DNA of 22,230 nt from a virus. This document shows positions 10,921-20,077 of the stretch, in pieces. The translations under genes and the position numbers were made by a program. The notes below the pieces were generated by a model. That model saw only the letters and a program-made list of their open reading frames with translations, had not been told where the DNA came from and searched no databases. Each line of letters starts with the position of its first letter. Position 1 is the first letter of the stretch. The stretch is from positions 455 through 22,684 of the IMG/VR virus record IMGVR_UViG_3300011129_000151; one strand, given 5' to 3'.

Positions 10921-13205
10921 CAAACCACCATTGCATTAATTTCTAAACCATCTTCAGTAGCTTCGTTGATAGCCTCTATAATGCGCCTTGCGCCTTCAGG
11001 GTCAATAGTACCATCTACACTTACATTGACGATAGAAGGCTCTTGGACGCTCACTGAGTCTGCTGTATCAAATTGTACTGGTGCGCTAGAGGCTATTGAA
11101 GATGCTGTAGCACCACCGCCACCACCGCCACCAGCACTAGAAATCTGACCTGCTCCCGATGCGATTATTGCCGCAGCATTTATCCCACCAATAATTTTTT
11201 CTGTAGTCATGGCTGCCGCTGCTCTTGCAGGAGCATCTGGAGTAGGAAGGCTTAACTGCGATGTTCTTGCAAGAATCATGTTTTCCGCAGTAGCCCTAGC
11301 ATTGTTAGCTAGTGCCACACCTGTTTGTACTACTATTAATGCTTTTTGCAGCGCAGCATTTTTACCTGCAAATCCAGATAACAAATTTAAAGCTGCGCCC
11401 AAAGCTCTCTTCTTACCATCTAGCATAATTTTGTCTGATTTTTTTGTAGCGTCTTCAGTTTCTTTTAAATACTTAGTGACTATTGCGTCTTTATTTGCCT
11501 CATGCAACTCAAGAGCCTCCTCACTAAGTCCATACTTATTAAGTTTGGCTTCATACTCCAGGTCGGCTTGTGCAAGCAATGCTTCAAGCTCTAGCATTCG
11601 AGCCTCTGACATAAATTCACTTCGCTCAAGCTCTGCTGCTTGCAGCAACTCTGTTTTTATTCTTTCATTCGACTCGAAAAAATAAATTTCATCTAATACT
11701 TTTTCATGATTTTCTTGTGCTAACTGATCCGCTAACTGCCTTTTTATTTCATTATGCTCCCTAATAGCACCATCTTCTGCGTTCAGTCTTTCCATTTGCA
11801 GTTGATTTTCTTGCTTTGCAGCTTGCAAGGTTAGTATTGAAGCGGCTTCCATTTCCCCCTGCTTGATTAATAATGATGCTGTAGACCTTTTTAATTCAAT
11901 TTCAAGAAGCCTAGTGCTTACAAGGTCTTCTTGCGCCACTCTTGCCTCACCACTACTTCCACCATCACCACCTTCACCGATAGCGTACGGTTCTGGTATT
12001 CGACTAATATCAAAAGATGTATCGGGTGCTTTTTTTGGTTTGGAGGGTTGTGCTCCAAAAATAATATTATCAATTTCTTGCTGGATTGGAGAAGAGCTAC
12101 CAAAACTTGCAAGAAAATTTTTCATAAAGTTTTTTGAATACTGCTCTCCACTTGTCCTTGTCCCTTCTTCAAACTTTTTAAGAGCCGCTGTTAAGTTATC
12201 AAAAACGCCTGTCCAACCAACAGCCCATTGAGTTGCCGCACCACTTGTTCTTGCTGCCTCTGCAAAAGTTTCTAAAAGATGATCCATTGACTCGCCAAGA
12301 CCATCATAAGCACCAGCAACTCCTGTACCCGCTGCCGCTCCAGCCCCACCTAGTTTTTTCTCAACCTTATCTAAAATAAGGTCTTGGATTTCAAACTCTT
12401 TGTTTGCAAGTTTTAAAGTATCAATCAAATCGCGCTCTTGAGCAGAAAATTGAACGCCAGCCCTTCTCAAAGCGGTTAAATTATTAACAGGATCTTCCAA
12501 AAGTCTGCCAAGTTTTTGAACATTCGCAGACGCGCTTCCGCCAACAACTGCCGACATATCTCCAGCAGCAACCATTGCCCTTTTGAAAACATCTTCTGTT
12601 ATATTTCCATAAGTCAGCAATACTGCGGCAGCTTCTCTAAATTCAGCTCCAGATCCTAAAGTTGCTACACCTAACTCTCTTGCAAAATCTTGAATTGATT
12701 GAGATGTCATGCCAACTTGATTGTCGGTTGCTCTTAATACCGCTTCTATTTTTAAAACTTGAGATTCCATTTCGGCAAAAGCAGCAACAGATCGCTGCGC
12801 TGCAATGCCAAGCCCAGCCATTGTTGCGCCAAAAGCTAAGCCAACAACACCAACCCTAGACAAGCCTGTAGCAACAAATGACAATCGACCAGATACGCCA
12901 TTAAGTGGGCCTAAAAGTGTTGCAGAGGCGTTAGAAGCATTTCTAAAAGAATTTGCTAGCTTATCGTTACCTTTAGATGAGCTATCAGATGCTTTTTTAT
13001 TGTTTTGTTTTGCTTTAGTGTTTTGGTTTGTTTTTTTAGTGTTGTCTTGTGTTGCCTTACTGGATTTTTTATCAGTGTCAGTTTTCTTTTTTGCAGCGTT
13101 CTCTGCGCCCCTTGCTGACTTAGTGATGTTTTTTAAAAGTTTGTCGGCTTTTTCAAGCTCTTTGGTGTCAGCCTGAAATATTAGTTTTGCAATTGTGTCT
13201 GCCAT
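10920..13205 (-). CDS. Tail tape measure protein
   Basis: This 761-residue protein has the layout of a lambda gpH-type tape measure. It has a charged, lysine-rich N-terminus (about 30-80) and a hydrophobic Gly/Ala stretch around 95-140 (VGVVGLAFGATMAGLGIAA). A conserved region follows (SQSIQDFARELGVATLGSG, then LTYGNITEDVFKRAM, GRLLEDPVNNLTALRRAGVQFS), typical of phage minor tail proteins of this kind. Long helices with Q/E/A-rich segments lie at about 430-600, and a glycine run (seven G) is near residue 695. The protein sets tail length and moves into the host envelope on DNA injection. At about 1.5 angstrom per residue it predicts a tail near 110 nm. It overlaps the chaperone fusion gene by 25 bases and starts at ATG 13205 with an AAGG site. 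Confidence 0.9.
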   Translation of the reverse strand: MADTIAKLIFQADTKELEKADKLLKNITKSARGAENAAKKKTDTDKKSSKATQDNTKKTNQNTKAKQNNKKASDSSSKGNDKLANSFRNASNASATLLGPLNGVSGRLSFVATGLSRVGVVGLAFGATMAGLGIAAQRSVAAFAEMESQVLKIEAVLRATDNQVGMTSQSIQDFARELGVATLGSGAEFREAAAVLLTYGNITEDVFKRAMVAAGDMSAVVGGSASANVQKLGRLLEDPVNNLTALRRAGVQFSAQERDLIDTLKLANKEFEIQDLILDKVEKKLGGAGAAAGTGVAGAYDGLGESMDHLLETFAEAARTSGAATQWAVGWTGVFDNLTAALKKFEEGTRTSGEQYSKNFMKNFLASFGSSSPIQQEIDNIIFGAQPSKPKKAPDTSFDISRIPEPYAIGEGGDGGSSGEARVAQEDLVSTRLLEIELKRSTASLLIKQGEMEAASILTLQAAKQENQLQMERLNAEDGAIREHNEIKRQLADQLAQENHEKVLDEIYFFESNERIKTELLQAAELERSEFMSEARMLELEALLAQADLEYEAKLNKYGLSEEALELHEANKDAIVTKYLKETEDATKKSDKIMLDGKKRALGAALNLLSGFAGKNAALQKALIVVQTGVALANNARATAENMILARTSQLSLPTPDAPARAAAAMTTEKIIGGINAAAIIASGAGQISSAGGGGGGGATASSIASSAPVQFDTADSVSVQEPSIVNVSVDGTIDPEGARRIIEAINEATEDGLEINAMVV

Positions 13206-13881
13206 TCTGTCAACCTTGCTGCGTCTAGGTCTAGTATGGCATTAATTTGCCAGCCTTCTAAACGATCATTAAATAATTCACAATAAGCCTGAATATCTTT
13301 TAAAGAAATAGACTCAACACCTTTTGATATTTTACAAAAAGCATCCCATGTTGGAAGTAAATGACCGCTTAAATCTGGCTGAGAAATTAATTGTTGTGGG
13401 GCTATGCCGCTAATTCTCTCAGCGGCCTCCCAATTTTCAAGCCTAGTAGAATTACTACCTTTCATTTTCCCGTTGGCATGAAAAATCCACTTGCCAAACC
13501 TTACGATTTCTTCGGCTTGGCTTTGGTAAAATTTGCTCTTTCAGCTATAAATTGGTCAACTTGATCTTTAACATAAGGCGCTTTTGTATAAAGCTCTCTA
13601 CACAATTCAGGGGTGAATTTCTCTTCAGTTCCCCTCCAGCTTATCGTAGCTGCAACCATACCATCAATTGACATATTTTCATCATCAAAATCTTTTTCCT
13701 TCTTTGATCTTAATGCTTCGATATATGCTTTTTGCTGCTTCTTTGCGTGATCTCTAAAAACTTGAGAATCAACACCCATGACCGTAATAAAAAGACCTGT
13801 TTTTTTACCCTGATCATCGAGTATTTCGCATTCAGCGCCTTCAGCGTGTAAGTCGGTTGTGTAAAGGTTGTTTAGCTTCAT
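13181..13881 (-). CDS. Tail assembly chaperone G-T fusion made by -1 frameshift
   Basis: Translation of the 126-residue chaperone can slip back one base at A AAU UUU (13528-13534) and continue to the stop at 13181. This gives about 233 residues: 118 shared with G and 115 unique. The unique part is open from the slip site, continues through a natural-looking stretch (YQSQAEEIVRFGKWIFHANG) and includes the ORF that begins at ATG 13465. That ATG has no good ribosome site, and coding-like residues run upstream of it, so a fusion explains it better than a separate gene. In lambda, gpG and gpGT made this way bind the tape measure and recruit tube subunits, and are absent from the finished tail. The same position, just before the tape measure gene, supports this role. 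Confidence 0.85.
13493..13521 (-). promoter_or_regulatory. Frameshift-stimulating stem-loop
   Basis: On the transcript, GCCAAGCC (13521-13514) can pair with GGUUUGGC (13500-13493) over eight base pairs including one G-U, with a 13-base loop. The spacer from the slippery heptamer is six bases, in the usual 5-9 range for -1 frameshifting. The zero-frame UAA stop lies inside the loop. Confidence 0.7.
13501..13881 (-). CDS. Tail assembly chaperone, G-type product
   Basis: This 126-residue protein lies between the tail tube and tape measure genes, where lambda gene G and its equivalents lie. It begins MKLNNLYTTDLHAEGAECEI, then has a DDQGKKTGLFITVMGVDSQ segment, a charged helical stretch (HAKKQQKAYIEALRSKKEKD) and SWRGTEEKFT. 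These fit the HK97-type or lambda-type tail assembly chaperones that bind the tape measure during tail growth and are not retained in the virion. The end of the reading frame carries a slippery heptamer and stem-loop that lets some ribosomes make a longer fusion. ATG 13881 directly follows a hairpin leader, so this gene probably has its own translational control. Confidence 0.85.
   Translation of the reverse strand: MKLNNLYTTDLHAEGAECEILDDQGKKTGLFITVMGVDSQVFRDHAKKQQKAYIEALRSKKEKDFDDENMSIDGMVAATISWRGTEEKFTPELCRELYTKAPYVKDQVDQFIAERANFTKAKPKKS
13528..13534 (-). promoter_or_regulatory. -1 frameshift slippery heptamer A AAU UUU
   Basis: In the chaperone frame the sequence reads gcA AAT TTT acc, a perfect X XXY YYZ slippery site. 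Slipping back one base re-pairs both tRNAs (AAU to AAA and UUU to UUU). It enters a frame that is open for 115 more codons. The site is eight codons before the zero-frame stop and six bases before a stem-loop. Confidence 0.85.
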
Positions 13882-13920
13882 AAATCCCCCAAGGATTTGT
13901 TAAGCCCCACCCAGTGGGGC
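13882..13920 (-). promoter_or_regulatory. Two-hairpin leader before the tail chaperone gene
   Basis: In transcript order there is a 7-bp hairpin GCCCCAC-UGG-GUGGGGC (13920-13904), a 5-base spacer, then a 6-bp hairpin AAAUCC-UUGGG-GGAUUU (13898-13882) that ends right at ATG 13881. The only ribosome-site-like purines (GGGGG) are in the loop and descending arm of the second hairpin, so folding should affect initiation. The first hairpin has no U-run after it, so it is not a standard terminator. The same design occurs before the scaffold gene. Confidence 0.65.
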
Positions 13921-13922
13921 GA

Positions 13923-14846
13923 TTATGAAAGGTCGTTATCAAATCGAATAGAGCTACTGATTCCTGAGTTATAAAGAGCCGTGTACTCTATGCTTGCAGT
14001 AACAGCACCGTCAGATGCAATCTCCACAGTACCAGCAGTCAATGCACAAGCGGGCATTTCAAAGCTAATACCAGTTGTACCAGAGCCAATCTTTAAAATG
14101 ATAGCTGTTTTCTGGTTTTGAACAAAACGAGTGTACTCAGCATTAGATTCAAATAAAACAGTCATACTTCCCGTTACCGCAGACTTTCCTAAGTGACCCT
14201 CAATAGGCGTATCATCGCCAATTACATACATTGCTGACATACCATTATCTACTGAAAGAGAAAACTCAGTACAGACTGCGCTTGGTGAACCGTTAAACGT
14301 AACTTCAGCGTCAGATGCCTGGAAAGGGATTTTCTCTGCCGCGCTTACGGCTGTAACTGAACTCCCAACATGAGTTGTTTCCTCAGTCATGTTAGCGCCC
14401 ATAAGGGTAAAACTAGTCTCAATTGTTCCACTAGTCCCTACAGAAAGGCTAAAAGCGTTGATCTGACAGCCTACGAACTCATGAAATCTACCCGACATAA
14501 CTTCATTAACAAAAGTAAAATGTCGTTGAGTGCTTCCTATTGTATAAGTTGAAGGGGAACTCTCACTTACATCGTCAGAGTCGCCAAATACCGCAGCTAT
14601 TAACTCATTATGCGCTGGATCTGGAGAAAGATCGCAAGTGATGTCACCTGAAACCGATTTTGTTCCTTTTAATATATCTTCAGCGTTCCTGTCGCCTCGT
14701 ATGCGATCCACGCTTACATTTTCAAACGCAAGTGCAAGTGAACTGCTTTTTTGATTTAACTCTTGATAAGCACCTGTAGGCGCTGTTTTGTACGTTACCT
14801 CTTCGACAAAAGAAAGCTGTGTCTCAAAGCCTGTTGCAATAGCCAT
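13923..14846 (-). CDS. Major tail tube protein
   Basis: This 307-residue protein opens AIATGFETQLSFVEEVTYKT, followed by SSSLALAFENVSVDRIRGDR and a KGTKSVSGDITCDLSPDP segment. These match the family of phage tail tube proteins often found in siphophages with this neck layout. Such proteins stack as hexameric rings to form the non-contractile tube that carries DNA. The length is close to that family's usual 300-320 residues. The C-terminal half (strands around MSAMYVIGDDTPIEGHLGK, ending TASIEYTALYNSG) is part of the same fold. The start at ATG 14846 has a GAGGA ribosome site and lies two bases after the tail terminator gene. It should be the most abundant tail protein. A hairpin leader separates it from the chaperone gene. 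Confidence 0.85.
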   Translation of the reverse strand: MAIATGFETQLSFVEEVTYKTAPTGAYQELNQKSSSLALAFENVSVDRIRGDRNAEDILKGTKSVSGDITCDLSPDPAHNELIAAVFGDSDDVSESSPSTYTIGSTQRHFTFVNEVMSGRFHEFVGCQINAFSLSVGTSGTIETSFTLMGANMTEETTHVGSSVTAVSAAEKIPFQASDAEVTFNGSPSAVCTEFSLSVDNGMSAMYVIGDDTPIEGHLGKSAVTGSMTVLFESNAEYTRFVQNQKTAIILKIGSGTTGISFEMPACALTAGTVEIASDGAVTASIEYTALYNSGISSSIRFDNDLS

Positions 14847-14848
14847 TT

Positions 14849-15364
14849 TTAAGTCCTCGCTGCGGTGTAGGCGAAATATTCAATATCAATATTTCTAGCA
14901 AAAAATGCACCATCTCTGCGCCCTACGCCAAGTGATACGTTCTTAATTCTCACTTCTGTTGTTCCAGCAATCAAGGTATCGCCTTTAACAAAAGCATTAG
15001 CAATGATGTCCATGTCTACCTCGTAGCCACCAACACCAACTTCATTGAAATAATCTATCCTAAATAATCCAGAGTGTAAATCAGAACCAGATGTACCAAT
15101 TGCTGCGCTTACCGTTTCGGATGGCAGTAAAGTACCTCTAATCCAAGAAACACCATTTTCATCTTTATCCAAAGTTGTTAAATCAAACTCTGTATTTTCA
15201 TAAATAATATTAGAAAAATCTGTACTCAAACCGCTAAGTCTAGTCTCAAAGCACAAGCGAATATCTCTAAATACTCTGTCAGTCCTAGATGGAATATCAC
15301 CTGTTGAGTAAACGCCATCGTTTACCTGATCAGTAATTAAACCGTAATCAACTGTCCCGCTCAT
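14849..15364 (-). CDS. Tail terminator-like protein (DUF4128-like)
   Basis: This 171-residue protein resembles minor tail proteins annotated as DUF4128, which match the lambda gpU type of tail terminator. It has an early segment RDIRLCFETRLSGL, a central HSGLFRIDYFNEVGVGGYEV, a GTTEVRIKNVSLG strand and a GAFFARNIDIEYFAY end. In other phages this pattern of strands around a central helix caps the growing tail tube and docks it to the head. It lies between a tail-completion gene and the tube gene, its usual place. It starts in an ATGA overlap with the preceding gene, so the two are translationally coupled. Family assignment is by pattern; no profile search was done. Confidence 0.7.
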   Translation of the reverse strand: MSGTVDYGLITDQVNDGVYSTGDIPSRTDRVFRDIRLCFETRLSGLSTDFSNIIYENTEFDLTTLDKDENGVSWIRGTLLPSETVSAAIGTSGSDLHSGLFRIDYFNEVGVGGYEVDMDIIANAFVKGDTLIAGTTEVRIKNVSLGVGRRDGAFFARNIDIEYFAYTAART

Positions 15365-15759
15365 TTGTACGTTTTCCCAGCACTGTTGACATTTGTAATC
15401 AAAAAACCCTTGGGTGCAGAATCATACCCCCCTATTTCCATCTTAACAGCATAGGGCTGACAATTGGTTAAATTAATAGTTTGTCCAACTTTTTCAGGAT
15501 TAATGTTTTTTACCACTTCATCAATCGAGGTCAAACTATCAACACCCTTTCCGCTGCCTAAATAACCATCGCTAGGTCGATCTACTGAGGTAGCTGGGCT
15601 TATAAAAGATGCAGTCCAATTATTCCTTAGCTTCCCTGTCAGAACAGCAGTATCACGAACAATCTTTTTTGAAGTTCCATCAAAGGTGTTAGATACGATT
15701 TTCATCGCATCAATAATGTAGTTGTCAGCGCCTTTTTTAACTTGCGAGCTGAAGCTCAT
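15361..15759 (-). CDS. Tail-completion or neck protein, HK97 gp10-like
   Basis: This 132-residue protein has the layout of HK97 gp10-type neck proteins: an N-terminal helix (ADNYIIDAMKIVSNTFDGTS), a T-A-V-L-T-G-K-L-R-N-N-W motif (about 38-49), and a late NCQPYAVKMEIGG segment. The motif with a G-x-L-x-x-x-W arrangement is frequent in this family. Such proteins bridge the head-completion ring and the tail. It overlaps the preceding stopper gene by 23 bases and the following gene by four (ATGA), as expected for a coupled neck operon. The assignment to a particular ring is inferred from order. Confidence 0.7.
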   Translation of the reverse strand: MSFSSQVKKGADNYIIDAMKIVSNTFDGTSKKIVRDTAVLTGKLRNNWTASFISPATSVDRPSDGYLGSGKGVDSLTSIDEVVKNINPEKVGQTINLTNCQPYAVKMEIGGYDSAPKGFLITNVNSAGKTYK

Positions 15760-16090
15760 AATAAATTACCGTTGCTGCTGGTTGTAACGGTTCAACTTTT
15801 AGAACCCTGTATTTTTCAGAATTAACATCGACTGTATGCCCAATTTTTGGCTCAGTTGCTGATGAGGCTATAGCCTTAACTAACTTTCCCTGAACTGCTT
15901 GCTCAGAAAACTCTTCTTTTGGCTGCTTAAATAAAACAATAGTAGCAGAATAAGACTCTGCCGTATGAGCAGAGTAACCAGAGGCTGGATTATACGCCCC
16001 CCTAGCTACTTTATAGAATGTAACCGATTGACCAAACTTTTTAATAAGTGTATCAGCCGTAGACTTAACACCAGCGTAGTTATAGCTCAT
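15737..16090 (-). CDS. Head closure (stopper) protein
   Basis: This 117-residue protein lies directly after the head-tail adaptor gene, the usual place of the stopper that seals DNA inside the filled head. It has an N-terminal helix (KSTADTLIKKFGQSVTFYKV), a central strand-loop region and a C-terminal segment KIGHTVDVNSEKYRVLKVEP, a small beta-barrel pattern shared with head-closure proteins such as SPP1 gp16 and lambda gpFII. The gene starts in an ATGA overlap with the adaptor gene and ends inside the next gene, so all are coupled. The sequence alone is not decisive, but position and fold pattern agree. Confidence 0.65.
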   Translation of the reverse strand: MSYNYAGVKSTADTLIKKFGQSVTFYKVARGAYNPASGYSAHTAESYSATIVLFKQPKEEFSEQAVQGKLVKAIASSATEPKIGHTVDVNSEKYRVLKVEPLQPAATVIYYELQLAS

Positions 16091-16566
16091 ACCCTAACAA
16101 TCCTATTGCTAGATTTAACGATCTTCCTGAGAGCTTGTGTGGCCGCTGGGAGCAATACTTTGGAAGCACTGCCGTTTTTGTAGGTAATGGTTATTTCGCC
16201 AATTTTTTCGCTTTGTGTTTCACGTGAAACAGGATCATTAATTCCATAGCCTTGTTCAAAACTATAAGCTATCTCATAAATTGATTTTTTAACTTCTTTT
16301 GGGATCTCATCGCTATCAATGCCAAAACCATCAATTACCACGTTGTGTCGCGGCCATTGCATTGCTTGGTCATCGTCAACCACATAACCAACAAACATTT
16401 GATTCTCAAAGTAGTCAGTAGCTCTAAGAATATAGGCTTCTGCTTGAGTTTCAGAGATTGCGGCTCTGCCTACATATCGTGCGTCTAAAAACGCATTATA
16501 TTCAGCAACAGTGACGTAGCTATCTGAGTTTGTTTTCCCCGTACCATCTTCAATTACTAAAGTCAT
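16087..16566 (-). CDS. Head-tail connector adaptor (annotated elsewhere as DnaT-like)
   Basis: This 159-residue protein has the conserved pattern seen in phage proteins often labelled putative DnaT-like ssDNA-binding: TNSDSYVTVAEYNAFLDARY, then QAEAYILRATDYFENQMFVG, the short QAMQWPRHN motif, and IPKEVKKSIYEIAYSF. The gene is next to the coat and neck genes, so the DNA-binding label is probably misleading. An adaptor that docks on the portal (gp6/gp15 type) fits better. It starts at ATG 16566, just after the terminator-like hairpin and U-run that follow the coat gene, with only a weak AGG. Its expression is therefore probably lower than that of the coat. Confidence 0.75.
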   Translation of the reverse strand: MTLVIEDGTGKTNSDSYVTVAEYNAFLDARYVGRAAISETQAEAYILRATDYFENQMFVGYVVDDDQAMQWPRHNVVIDGFGIDSDEIPKEVKKSIYEIAYSFEQGYGINDPVSRETQSEKIGEITITYKNGSASKVLLPAATQALRKIVKSSNRIVRV

Positions 16567-16578
16567 TTCTACTGGCCT

Positions 16579-16635
16579 AAAAAAAACAGGCTACACGATG
16601 GAAAAGGGTTTAACCATACTGCCGTGTAACCTGTT
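16579..16635 (-). terminator. Intrinsic terminator or attenuator after the coat gene
   Basis: On the minus-strand RNA, AACAGGUUACACG (16635-16623) pairs with CGUGUAGCCUGUU (16597-16585) over 13 bp with one G-U. It is followed at once by eight U (16586-16579; the stem and U-run share two bases). A small inner AUGG/CCAU stem adds to it. On the plus strand the G-U becomes a C-A mismatch, so the structure is oriented for leftward transcripts. It lies between coat and connector genes and should lower expression of the latter. Confidence 0.75.
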
Positions 16636-16652
16636 AAGGAAATTCATTGAAT

Positions 16653-16671
16653 GGGCGCACAAAGTACGCCC
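16653..16671 (-). other. Hairpin just downstream of the coat stop codon
   Basis: The minus-strand RNA folds as GGGCGUAC-UUU-GUGCGCCC, an 8-bp stem with one G-U and a 3-base loop, nine bases after the coat stop. It has no U-run. It may protect the 3' end of the coat message or assist the terminator that follows. The G-U would be C-A on the other strand. Confidence 0.5.
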
Positions 16672-16680
16672 AAACAACAC

Positions 16681-17838
16681 CTAGCCCATGATAGTAGAGA
16701 TGAATTCAGGCTTCCACGCTTTGACACCCCAAACACACGCCACTTCAACAAAAGTTTGACGATATTGAGGATAAACGGAGATTTCAAAAGGCAAGCCGCT
16801 GAAAGGATCAACTACCGTTAAGCGATCAGTAGCCATATCAGATGCTGCTGCTGCTGGTGGGCGAATAGCAAGCTCTAATGCAGCTCGATGAAAAGCAACG
16901 GCTGGCGTATGAGTGGCCTTAACGGTAATTGCCTTTTCAGAAGCTGGAAGAGCCTGTTTTAATCCAGGTTCTGCAATCTTCAAAGTAGCACCACTTACAG
17001 CACCAATATCTTCAACAACACCATAAACATTAGGATCGTCCGCAAAGGTAATAAAATCACCTGCTTTTAGTGTGCCACTACCCGAAGATTTCAATGTTAT
17101 TACAGTCTCGCCTACTGCATAACCTGTGTTGTTTGTAGTCGCGGTGGTTGAAGTTCCCTTTACATGACTAGCAACAGCCGCAGATTCACGAATGTTAATA
17201 CCACTCATTGGCAACAAGATGCCGCTTCGAGCAATACTGTCAGTTCCTGCTTGGTTTACGTTTGCTTGCGTAGGGTTGCTTCGGACGTTTGCTCCAGCCA
17301 AAGTGTCAACAACCATCTGAAACTCACCGTTATTTGGAGTTCCATTATCAACAAGCATTTTTCTAGCAAAAGCAGCGTCAGTGTAATCGGTATCAAGAGT
17401 TGACGCGCCAGAACAATCACGAGCGGTGCTTGAGTTTTTTGAAGCCTCTAAAAAAAGATCAACTTCGATTTCGTTGGTCAAGGTTCGCATTGCTTGAGCA
17501 ACTTGATCACCGTAAACAGTTTCATAACCGTAACGGTTGTCGGTCTTTAATTTTTGCTCACCATTCCAGCCAATTTGAACGCCTCGCTGCTTGTTTAGAG
17601 TAAGAAATCGCTCGTCAATAGTTTGGTTGTCAGCATTGGGGGTAATATTGTTAGGAGCGATGTCTACAGCAGATGCTGTGTTGGTGAAAGCAGCAGCAAC
17701 ATTTGTCCCATAAGCAGCGCCATCAGCACCAGAGTTGATAGTTGCGCCAGTAACAAAGCCTGATTGCTCACGACCTACGATGTCAGCAGCTTTGTAAATA
17801 TCTTGAACGATTGAACTTAATACGTTTACAGTACCCAT
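16681..17838 (-). CDS. Major coat protein, P22-like
   Basis: This 385-residue protein resembles the P22 gp5-type coat family. It has an N-terminal arm (MGTVNVLSSIVQDIYKAADI), TLNKQRGVQIGWNGEQKLKT (about 80-99), and AVAFHRAALELAIRPP (about 314-328), a typical motif of this family. It also has the late DPFSGLPFEISVYPQYRQ strand region. Residues ~225-305 are strand-rich, with glycine turns, and sit where P22 coat carries its inserted domain. It is 45 residues shorter than P22 coat (430). It builds the icosahedral shell from an HK97-fold subunit around the scaffold. The start at ATG 17838 has a GGAG site, 17 bases after the scaffold gene. Two hairpins, one a terminator-like signal, follow it and fit a need for very high expression. 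Confidence 0.85.
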   Translation of the reverse strand: MGTVNVLSSIVQDIYKAADIVGREQSGFVTGATINSGADGAAYGTNVAAAFTNTASAVDIAPNNITPNADNQTIDERFLTLNKQRGVQIGWNGEQKLKTDNRYGYETVYGDQVAQAMRTLTNEIEVDLFLEASKNSSTARDCSGASTLDTDYTDAAFARKMLVDNGTPNNGEFQMVVDTLAGANVRSNPTQANVNQAGTDSIARSGILLPMSGINIRESAAVASHVKGTSTTATTNNTGYAVGETVITLKSSGSGTLKAGDFITFADDPNVYGVVEDIGAVSGATLKIAEPGLKQALPASEKAITVKATHTPAVAFHRAALELAIRPPAAAASDMATDRLTVVDPFSGLPFEISVYPQYRQTFVEVACVWGVKAWKPEFISTIMG

Positions 17839-17855
17839 TTTTTAAAACTCCAAAA

Positions 17856-18542
17856 TTAATCAGTAAGTTTGCCGCCATCTTTCATAAACTTAGCCCTACT
17901 TATGTGGTCAAGCCCATCAAAGTCTGCACGACTCATAGTTTTGGAATCACCAGCCCCGCTCGTATTTCCGCTTGCGCTACCCCCAGTAGCTTTTGAACCA
18001 TCTACCAAAAAAGGATATTCCTTTTTGACGGATGTCGTCAAATCTTGAAGTGATGAAACGGTTGCATTACCAGCACCGTCACTCACTTTTAACTCTCCAT
18101 CGACCATAACGAGTCGATTGGAAAATTGTTCTTTCAATAACTTCTGGCGACCAGCGTCAGTTGTTAAAGTTGAGGCTAATTCAGTAGCCTTGTTATCAAT
18201 ATTACTTTTCGTAATTTGATTTTTTAGGTCAGAAAACGCACTTTCTGACTTCTGCCTTTCAGCCTCAGAGCTTTCATACAAAGATTTGTAATCTTGATCT
18301 GACTTGGCCTTTTCAATAGCAGCAGCAACAGCGGCCTCTTCAGCTTCCTTTGCTTTTTGTTGAGCGGTTTTTTTCTCGCCTAACAACTCTTCTACTTTTC
18401 TTTTTAAACCACTGGTGTCCTCTTGCTCTGGCATCCCTGATACCGAAAGAACGAAATTATCACCATCTTGCTTGTACAAACCCTGAACAGACTCATCCAG
18501 TGAAGTAAAAGCATCTTTATCTAAAGTGTATTCAATAGCCAT
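17856..18542 (-). CDS. Capsid scaffolding protein
   Basis: This 228-residue protein directly precedes the coat gene. It begins MAIEYTLDKDAFTSLDESVQ. Residues ~40-105 form a long charged helix with coiled-coil character (LKRKVEELLGEKKTAQQKAK, KAKEAEEAAVAAAIEKAKSD). A Gly/Ser/Thr-rich linker lies near 185-205, and a short basic C-terminal segment (SRAKFMKDGG) follows, like the C-terminal coat-binding tails of scaffolds. It should assemble with coat subunits to form the procapsid and then leave. The start used is ATG 18542; the apparent TTG start at 18554 lies inside a hairpin. That hairpin leader, found also before the tail chaperone gene, places its only GGGG ribosome-like element in the loop. 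Confidence 0.8.
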   Translation of the reverse strand: MAIEYTLDKDAFTSLDESVQGLYKQDGDNFVLSVSGMPEQEDTSGLKRKVEELLGEKKTAQQKAKEAEEAAVAAAIEKAKSDQDYKSLYESSEAERQKSESAFSDLKNQITKSNIDNKATELASTLTTDAGRQKLLKEQFSNRLVMVDGELKVSDGAGNATVSSLQDLTTSVKKEYPFLVDGSKATGGSASGNTSGAGDSKTMSRADFDGLDHISRAKFMKDGGKLTD

Positions 18543-18543
18543 A

Positions 18544-18581
18544 TATAACCCCAAGTTATATTAGTGTGTCACCCAGTGACA
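18544..18581 (-). promoter_or_regulatory. Two-hairpin leader before the scaffold gene
   Basis: In transcript order there is a 6-bp hairpin UGUCAC-UGG-GUGACA (18581-18567), a 6-base spacer, then a 6-bp hairpin UAUAAC-UUGGG-GUUAUA (18560-18544) ending one base before ATG 18542. It starts 17 bases after the portal gene ends. Loops (UGG, UUGGG) and spacing match the leader at 13882-13920, while most stem bases differ but still pair. It has no U-run, so it is not a standard terminator. A role in translation is likely. Confidence 0.65.
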
Positions 18582-18598
18582 ATTTGTTATATACCAAA

Positions 18599-20077
18599 CT
18601 AATCTTCAGTAGTCAAAGATTCTTCTAAATTTTCTTCAGATTCTTCGCCTTCATCTTCATCAGCCACGTTTCTTCCTGCAATAATTGCTCTGCGTTTTAG
18701 CCTTTCTTTTAACTCTACTATTAGCTCGGCATCTATATCTTCGTTGGTTCTGCCGTCCTTAATCACGCCTTGATCTCTAGCAAGGTTTTGCATATCGCTT
18801 TTGGCAATAACACCGCCCTCATTCAACTGCATTGCAGCCATAAGCATTTGCGGATCGTTAGTATCGTCAAAAAACTCTGTATTTAGCTTAAATAGTGCAT
18901 CTGATGCAGCGCCCATAAACTCTCCACACCAGTTTATACACTGTTGTATGCCTTCACTTACGTTATCGGCAATAGTTGTGAGTATTGAAGTCTCACCAGC
19001 TTGCTCGATTAACGATTGCGTGGCAGTTTTAACACTACCCCCTTCTGAAATCATTCTAGCGCCCAATTTTCTCATTTGAGACTCTTTTCTTTCCATCAAA
19101 TGATCAGCTAATTGGTTTTTCTCAGCCTGAACAACAGAAAAACTGCCGCCCTCGCCTAAAAAGTGACCCGCCATCGCCCCTACAACAATCCCATTAGGAT
19201 TTGCTGCTTCAAATTGATCGTGGGACATAGATGATGAAACGCCTAGTGTTAATTGACCGTGAACAAAGCAATTTTCCTCAAGATCCGCAGAATTTCGGTA
19301 GTGTCCGATATTTAAGTGGGCAATATCGGCCAAGGGAGGCGTATCTACTTCACTATCATTGTTTTCAGCGCCAATAATAAACATTGGCATGATTGAAAAA
19401 GGTGTGCCATCAGCCTTTAAGGGTATGATTTCTTGCTCAAAAGGTTTGTTATCTCGATAGACTTGTTGAGAATAAACGCCATTGGTTAATCGTAAGACTC
19501 GATACTGAGTTTCTGCGTCAAACTCAAATTCATCAGAACTTGCGTTGTAGGTTTCCTTTAAAACGGCCAATCCTAATATTTTTTGGCCGTTTACCTTGTC
19601 TACTCGCCAATTAATCAGGGATTCGCAGTTATATCGGTTAATTGTGGCTTGTGGGCTGAGATTTTGTATCTGTTCAGCAGTTAAATTAGCCTCAAGTGGT
19701 GGGTAATCAACTAAAAGAACGTGCCTACCGCGACCAACAACCTCACCAGTTACATCTTTTGCCAGTGAAATTAAGGTTTCTCCTGCTCCATCAGCATTTT
19801 CCAGTAGATATTCGCACTCTGTAGGCAGCTCTATCTCTGGATCTTCTCTAAAAACAGCCCCTGTTAACCCTTCTTTTGTTCTACCAGTGAAGTTTACAAA
19901 GTTTGCCCTAGCAATATAGCTTAAATATCTGGGATCAGAGGTAGATACTTGACTCATTGGGCGCAGATACTTGTCTTTTTTATTTTTTACAGAACTTTGC
20001 CCCTCGCAGCAATCTTTTACCATCTCCCAATCGGATAAATGTTTTTTGTACTCTGAATGTTGCGTATCTATTGGCAT
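18599..20077 (-). CDS. Portal protein, DUF4055 family
   Basis: This 492-residue protein matches phage portals of the DUF4055 group. It starts HSEYKKHLSDWEMVKDCCEG, followed by KDKYLRP, then ARANFVNFTGRTKEGLTGAV (about 57-76). Further on is LADIAHLNIGHYRNSADLEE and, later, a helical TATQSLIEQAGETSILTTIA. The last ~30 residues are acidic (EDEGEESEENLEE). Portals form the 12-subunit ring at one capsid vertex through which terminase pumps DNA, and later hold the neck. It begins two bases after the terminase gene ends, at ATG 20077, with only a weak GGTG ribosome site, so translational coupling to terminase is likely. Length is normal for the family. Confidence 0.9.
   Translation of the reverse strand: MPIDTQHSEYKKHLSDWEMVKDCCEGQSSVKNKKDKYLRPMSQVSTSDPRYLSYIARANFVNFTGRTKEGLTGAVFREDPEIELPTECEYLLENADGAGETLISLAKDVTGEVVGRGRHVLLVDYPPLEANLTAEQIQNLSPQATINRYNCESLINWRVDKVNGQKILGLAVLKETYNASSDEFEFDAETQYRVLRLTNGVYSQQVYRDNKPFEQEIIPLKADGTPFSIMPMFIIGAENNDSEVDTPPLADIAHLNIGHYRNSADLEENCFVHGQLTLGVSSSMSHDQFEAANPNGIVVGAMAGHFLGEGGSFSVVQAEKNQLADHLMERKESQMRKLGARMISEGGSVKTATQSLIEQAGETSILTTIADNVSEGIQQCINWCGEFMGAASDALFKLNTEFFDDTNDPQMLMAAMQLNEGGVIAKSDMQNLARDQGVIKDGRTNEDIDAELIVELKERLKRRAIIAGRNVADEDEGEESEENLEESLTTED

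Follow-up and report, generated by a model that had tools for sequence, protein, structure and literature searches.

Tandem same-loop hairpins before phage scaffold genes: what looks like an undescribed RNA control element for virus-head production

Two hairpin leaders and the genes behind them

The stretch of virus DNA analysed here, called the window throughout (22,230 nucleotides of a 22.7-kb virus fragment), carries the genes for a head scaffolding protein, a P22-type coat protein and a tail assembly chaperone (Table 1), and two short leaders, both read on the minus strand, stand before the first and the third of these genes. A first-pass annotation had placed a pair of hairpins in each leader, and both the positions and the two-hairpin design are confirmed on the minus strand; its statement that the two downstream genes make assembly factors is borne out by the PHROG matches.

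In each leader the hairpins are separated by a short spacer, CACUAA (6 bases) in the scaffold copy and UUAAC (5 bases) in the chaperone copy, and the second hairpin holds the Shine-Dalgarno sequence, with GGGG in the scaffold copy. The UAUAAC-UUGGG-GUUAUA core of scaffold hairpin 2 occupies 18560-18544 and is followed by one base and the AUG at 18542-18540, and the chaperone AUG (13881-13879) directly abuts its hairpin 2. The string CACTGGGTG occurs exactly twice in the window (0.11 expected), both times in these leaders and both times with CTTGGGG 14 bases downstream, and an equally good same-loop two-hairpin arrangement arose in 0/5000 and 1/5000 shuffles, one set having been made per leader. 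The looser pattern CACTGGGTG-N8-22-CTTGGGG was rejected as a search string over IMG/VR, its 88 contigs being mostly unrelated and genuine relatives having the 14-base gap.

Table 1. Positions of the leaders, genes and signals in the window
Feature	Position	Strand	Description and basis
Scaffold leader hairpin 1	18567..18581	-	UGUCAC-UGG-GUGACA; sequence, covariation (5/6 pairs two-sided), folding
Scaffold leader hairpin 2	18543..18561	-	(A)UAUAAC-U[UGG]G-GUUAUA(U); sequence, covariation (4/6 pairs two-sided), folding
Chaperone leader hairpin 1	13904..13920	-	GCCCCAC-UGG-GUGGGGC; sequence, covariation (5/6 pairs two-sided)
Chaperone leader hairpin 2	13882..13898	-	AAAUCC-U[UGG]G-GGAUUU; sequence, covariation (4/6 pairs two-sided, relatives keeping hairpin 2)
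Head scaffolding protein gene, 228 aa	17856..18542	-	PHROG 206, 2.6e-29
Major capsid protein gene, P22-coat type	16681..17838	-	PHROG 283, 1.6e-69; named relatives annotated P22 coat protein
Tail assembly chaperone gene, 126 aa	13501..13881	-	PHROG 313, 7.9e-18
Promoter-like TTGACT-17-TATATA, between portal and scaffold	18588..18616	-	Sequence and relatives
Terminator-like hairpin after capsid gene, 13-bp stem then T8	16578..16635	-	Sequence

The promoter-like site between the portal and scaffold genes predicts a transcription start near 18581, which is the foot of scaffold hairpin 1. The window's own site has p=0.06, and among relatives the best site reaches p<=0.05 in 17 of 35 distinct scaffold leaders vs 0 of 44 chaperone leaders; the relatives' scaffold sites are of the TTGACA-17-TATATA or TATAAT type, and in most relatives having one they end 41-53 bases upstream of the start codon. 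With a promoter-like site upstream and a terminator-like hairpin after the coat gene, the scaffold and coat genes appear to share a single transcript, whose predicted 5' end carries the element. In HK639, Klebsiella 5, Acinetobacter qsb1, Pasteurella Pm86 and L003 an intrinsic terminator lies directly upstream instead of a promoter. A second hairpin (GGGCGTAC...GTGCGCCC) immediately follows the capsid stop codon (window 16578-16680, minus). A separate observation on this module is that the related locus L001, compared over 16681-18542 of the window, is 98% identical in the scaffold and 99% in the portal and only 80% in the capsid protein, possibly a trace of recombination inside the head module.

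Folding of the RNA from the predicted start gives the two hairpins as the structure of minimum energy, in the window as in most relatives, with an additional U-G closing pair in hairpin 2. The loop given in the first-pass annotation stands for hairpin 1 (UGG), and for hairpin 2 the proposed UUGGG is better read as a U-G-closed NGG triloop of the same kind. With longer upstream sequence included, minimum-energy folding favours other structures over the two hairpins. Pairing of hairpin 2 with the upstream TATATAAC was considered and dropped, because L235 alters the arm yet retains the upstream TATAT; a -10 element fits that stretch better.

This geometry is what gives weight to the main rival among the interpretations, a leader that needs no ligand, in which a 5'-terminal hairpin 1 would protect the scaffold-coat mRNA and the loop of hairpin 2 would present the Shine-Dalgarno sequence at a fixed translation rate, insulated from what lies upstream. 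The sigma70-like promoter puts the start at the hairpin 1 foot in the window family, the fold from that start is the two hairpins themselves, and 5'-terminal hairpins are known stabilisers of mRNAs such as ompA. We nevertheless regard such a leader as rather unlikely, in that several phages have the terminator and not a promoter just upstream, the chaperone leaders have no promoter sites, and it leaves unexplained why hairpin 1 should carry the loop of hairpin 2, why loops should match within a genome and change between lineages, and why coat leaders have hairpins far from the Shine-Dalgarno sequence (both described below).

Covariation and gene specificity in relatives

About 150 related loci were collected in scans that used the scaffold, coat and chaperone proteins as queries. 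In scaffold leaders at 50-56% protein identity both hairpins are kept with their letters changed, hairpin 1 occurring as UGUCAC/GUGACA, AUCUAC/GUAGAU, GCCAC/GUGGC, UGUCUC/GAGACA, GUCGC/GCGAC or GUUGC/GCAAC and hairpin 2 as UAUAAC/GUUAUA, UUAUUGA/UCAAUAA or GUUAC/GUAAC. Across a MAFFT alignment of 19 distinct scaffold leaders 97.3% of the cells pair, and two-sided changes are found in 9 of the 12 pairs and in 33 cells, compared with 9.7 cells in shuffles, none of 500 shuffles reaching these values. Pairing falls to 28-53% when partners are slid, and RNAalifold on its own predicts the same two hairpins. One leader, L047, was misplaced by the first MAFFT alignment and was excluded from the covariance model.

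The stems of the chaperone leaders carry two-sided changes as well (Table 1), the count for hairpin 2 being taken over rows selected for having that hairpin. The earlier argument from covariation had compared the two window leaders with each other; since these are not homologous copies, the differences between them are not covariation proper, and it is the homologous leaders that supply it. That a real RNA element exists at these leaders is near certain. A possible third hairpin, TTCGC-AGG-GCGAA or ACTCAC-AGG-GTGAGT, lies in-frame in the early scaffold codons of L033, L043 and some others and is absent in the window; its UUCGC-AGG-GCGAA form shows one synonymous covarying change, and it is not claimed as part of the element because a break stands beside that single change.

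A covariance model trained on scaffold leaders only was run over 94 loci (987 kb) and 29 whole virus records. Its strong matches mark the starts of scaffold genes. Of the weaker matches, nearly all lie at the starts of chaperone genes, which the training set did not include, or of more distant scaffold genes, and the remainder are antisense or at chance level. Such a search of relatives had been proposed at the outset, and the matches fall almost only before the two kinds of gene named there and are not randomly spread. A descriptor free of sequence (two stems of at least 5, loops with GG, an ATG within 10), applied to 4.8 Mb of strand, likewise picked out scaffold and chaperone genes almost exclusively once only reading frames of real length are considered. 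Tandem same-loop hairpins at p<=0.05 were found, among leaders thinned by similarity, before 21/28 scaffold, 10/36 chaperone and 3/50 coat genes and before 1/37 portal and 1/39 Hc1 genes, and in none of the 46 Ad1, 29 terminase, 26 tail tube, 17 tail terminator and 12 neck leaders. The covariation and these gene-specific matches uphold the proposal of a selected RNA structure common to scaffold and chaperone leaders. Four other loci (L347, at 1650-1669, L348, L349 and L350) have a single hairpin resembling hairpin 2, TATATC-TGG-GGATATATG, before a conserved gene whose product, about 214 aa long, begins like a signal peptide; this hairpin falls within the upstream coding sequence.

The outcomes named beforehand as refuting the proposal, unpaired or unrelated leaders in relatives and matches scattered at random, were looked for, and the results did not refute it. 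The chaperone copy is not universal: hairpin 2 is lost in one set of relatives, and in distant ones the chaperone gene begins right behind the tail-tube stop codon and lacks a leader. This copy is confined to relatives of the window phage, among which hairpin 1 is nearly always present, but in several members with hairpin 2 lost or weakened the loop of hairpin 1 has drifted to UAGU, UAU or UUUUG. The chaperone copy seems to have been recruited later, on the same design.

Retention of the chaperone hairpin 1 where hairpin 2 is lost, together with its GC-rich stem and its place after the tail-tube stop, could also speak for processing, terminator or antitermination signals that lie between genes by chance, and intrinsic terminators do occur just upstream in HK639, Klebsiella 5 and other phages. 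No U-run follows hairpin 1 in either window leader, the next bases being CACUAA or UUAACAAA, and a terminator scan lists neither hairpin 1 on the coding (minus) strand; moreover, the stems fall short of the length that RNase III needs and the position is tied to the start codons of a few genes, so that this explanation appears highly improbable. The chaperone gene itself forms, with the next frame of 94 aa (Phage_TAC_18), what resembles a programmed-frameshift pair (window 13181-13510, minus), in which an A-run right before the chaperone stop (CCGAAAAAATAG) is kept in relatives and the second frame is similar upstream of any start.

Loop types across phage lineages

Beyond the window family, scaffold or coat leaders again carry tandem hairpins in phages whose scaffolds barely align, and the loops match within a genome and differ between lineages, the types being NGG, GGAU/GGAA, NAG, NGA and NGU. 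The scaffold leader of Salicola phage CGphi29 has GCCC-GGAU-GGGC and GGCU-GGAU-AGCC and its coat leader two further GGAU hairpins; Klebsiella phage 5 has GGAU loops before both scaffold and coat, and in Synechococcus JY42 the scaffold leader has GGAU, AGAU and GGAU and the coat leader GGAU. Caulobacter DMCA has GGGC-GGAA-GCCC twice, and its GGAA/GGAU loop type is seen again outside the scaffold leader. NAG loops are found in Acinetobacter qsb1 and Pasteurella Pm86, two GGG hairpins upstream of the coat gene in Vibrio MAR10, GUGAU, GCGAU and GUGAA loops in Microcystis Me-ZS1, a GAG loop twice in L006 and an AGA loop twice in L261. In the coat leaders of the Klebsiella phage and MAR10 the hairpins stand 36-65 bases before the start and leave the Shine-Dalgarno sequence uncovered. 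The L029 scaffold leader has two consecutive copies of CTTGA-GCGGAAA-TCAAG, a larger-loop version of the tandem design.

After thinning at 80% coat identity, a strong hairpin lies within the last 55 bases in 45 of 46 leaders vs 42% in shuffles, and 29 of the 46 have a same-loop pair at p<=0.05, figures to be read with start codons assigned by script, loci that are related and a few leaders of a single hairpin. The loop of the strongest hairpin falls within one small set in 42/45 leaders vs 10% in shuffles, the set having been drawn up after looking. When the two strongest hairpins are chosen with the loop ignored, loops match within the genome in 17 of 32 cases vs 8.6 on permutation (P=0.0001).

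Loop type is associated with the N-terminus of the scaffold: the nearest relative by this region has the same loop type in 16/25 cases (P=0.0001), and the nearest by coat protein in 8/25 (P=0.16), with hand-assigned loop classes giving 15/22 and 5/22, respectively. A further nearest-neighbour test, in which certain pairs were excluded, was set aside because that exclusion rule confounded it. It has to be noted that the leader physically adjoins the N-terminal coding part of the scaffold gene, so that linkage can mimic co-evolution; the same loops at the chaperone leader, 4.6 kb away, and at coat leaders are not explained in this way.

Candidate readers of the loops and related operators

Free stems, a fixed loop shown twice, a Shine-Dalgarno sequence covered in the window family and lineage-specific loops shared by separate leaders of one genome are as expected of a phage-encoded, sequence-specific RNA-binding factor. 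Since the element goes with the scaffold gene and the loop type follows the scaffold's N-terminus, the scaffold is the foremost candidate. We infer that a protein binds the leaders, that the scaffold is this protein and that its binding represses. In the model that we propose, two small hairpins would display one loop (NGG here) just before the start codon, the second holding the Shine-Dalgarno sequence, and a phage-encoded factor would recognise this loop on a stem of free sequence and bind both hairpins together. By adjusting ribosome access, it might cause the scaffold, and via the same transcript the coat, to be made in step with assembly, and in the window lineage the tail chaperone might be timed to assembly by the same factor, for which the candidate is the scaffolding protein acting through its N-terminal region. 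Binding by an assembly protein is consistent with the within-genome loop match and the tracking of the scaffold N-terminus, and that the leaders are cis-acting translational operators for such a factor, most likely the scaffold, seems to us close to an even call, if a little short of it. Against it, the window scaffold protein belongs to no Pfam family, and its AlphaFold model, mainly a long coiled coil to which a small beta part is added at the N-terminus, has no fold match to any solved structure. The coat-leader hairpins that leave the Shine-Dalgarno sequence uncovered and the loss of chaperone hairpin 2 in some relatives also weigh against this reading.

The ribosome could itself be the reader, with both loops pairing with the anti-Shine-Dalgarno sequence and hairpin 1 as a standby or decoy site, and it counts against an operator that most loops with their closing G resemble a Shine-Dalgarno sequence (AGGG, GAGG, GGGG, GUGAU) and that the real one sits in hairpin 2 in the window family. 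Triloops, however, are too small for good pairing of this kind, GGAU, UGU and AGA match poorly, and the 16S 3' ends of the hosts are nearly identical, so that lineage-specific loops would be unneeded; we consider a ribosomal reader improbable. A host RNA-binding protein such as CsrA/RsmA bridging both hairpins is the least probable reading. The layout does recall CsrA/RsmA leaders, with two loop sites of which one lies over the Shine-Dalgarno sequence, and HK639-type phages have GGA-containing loops; CsrA/RsmA, however, requires a GGA loop (ANGGA), and all loops in both window leaders are UGG/UUGGG then G, giving GGG and no GGA. Moreover, loop type tracks the phage scaffold and not the host, and two Acinetobacter hosts have different loops, which is evidence against a host reader.

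For an operator read by a phage protein there are precedents. In T4/RB69 the gene 43 operator is an mRNA hairpin with the loop UAAC, which lies upstream of the ribosome-binding site, extends to it and is bound by the gene's own product (PMC3014915). Like it, the window-type leaders have, close to the ribosome-binding site, a stem that carries a specific loop, and they keep the loop as the stems change; the T4 operator differs in being a single hairpin at a replication gene with one loop type, as opposed to tandem same-loop hairpins at assembly genes. Support for T4-type binding and repression by the downstream product may be seen in loop similarity following the scaffold N-terminus and not the coat, and is only indirect. 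The coat operators of MS2, Qbeta and PP7 are small hairpins at the start codon whose loops are read by an assembly protein and are lineage-specific. The MS2-type operator of RNA phages has a bulged A and an ANYA tetraloop, whereas the window leaders have perfect stems with NGG triloops and the family as a whole perfect stems with triloops or tetraloops; the likeness is one of analogy, with a putative reader.

Feedback on scaffold synthesis in P22 was reportedly described by Wyckoff and Casjens in 1985, and how the dosage of scaffold and coat is controlled in tailed phages has, to our knowledge, been an open question since. P22 has the same coat family as the window phage, and the first-pass annotation had drawn on it; that direct tie is not supported, as the 130 bases upstream of gene 8 in P22 contain no tandem hairpins with a common loop. 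For the P22 scaffold autoregulation, PMC5744158 cites Wyckoff and Casjens 1985.

What is described here is a concrete RNA element, recognised from sequence alone, that occurs in phages whose hosts are marine bacteria, Escherichia, Klebsiella, Acinetobacter, Pasteurella, Salicola, Caulobacter and a cyanobacterium, and it looks like an undescribed RNA control element for virus-head production with a putative reader. More tentatively, and with about one chance in three in our estimation expressed loosely, it might represent a widespread, undescribed family of operators with a lineage-specific loop code, used by tailed dsDNA phages that have P22-type coats. The scaffold would read these operators, and the making of scaffold, coat and, in a single lineage, chaperone would thereby keep pace with assembly. 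If each scaffold did read its own loop code, DNA phages would have an assembly operator like that of RNA phages, and the loops would offer a set of orthogonal translation switches.

Such an element is not described in the openly readable papers searched, an absence of little weight. Rfam 15 gave zero gathering-score matches in the window or at the leaders of the related loci scanned, and chance-level ones only at relaxed thresholds. RNA motifs named after GP20 genes are said to have been reported by Weinberg in 2017, and no GP20-type motif name is among the Rfam matches. Away from the leaders, Rfam matches were obtained to abiF RNA in Salicola phage CGphi29 (L334 1561-1597) and to int-alpA RNA in Acinetobacter phage qsb1 and a Flyfo siphovirus (L332 10069-10139; L343 8058-8127).
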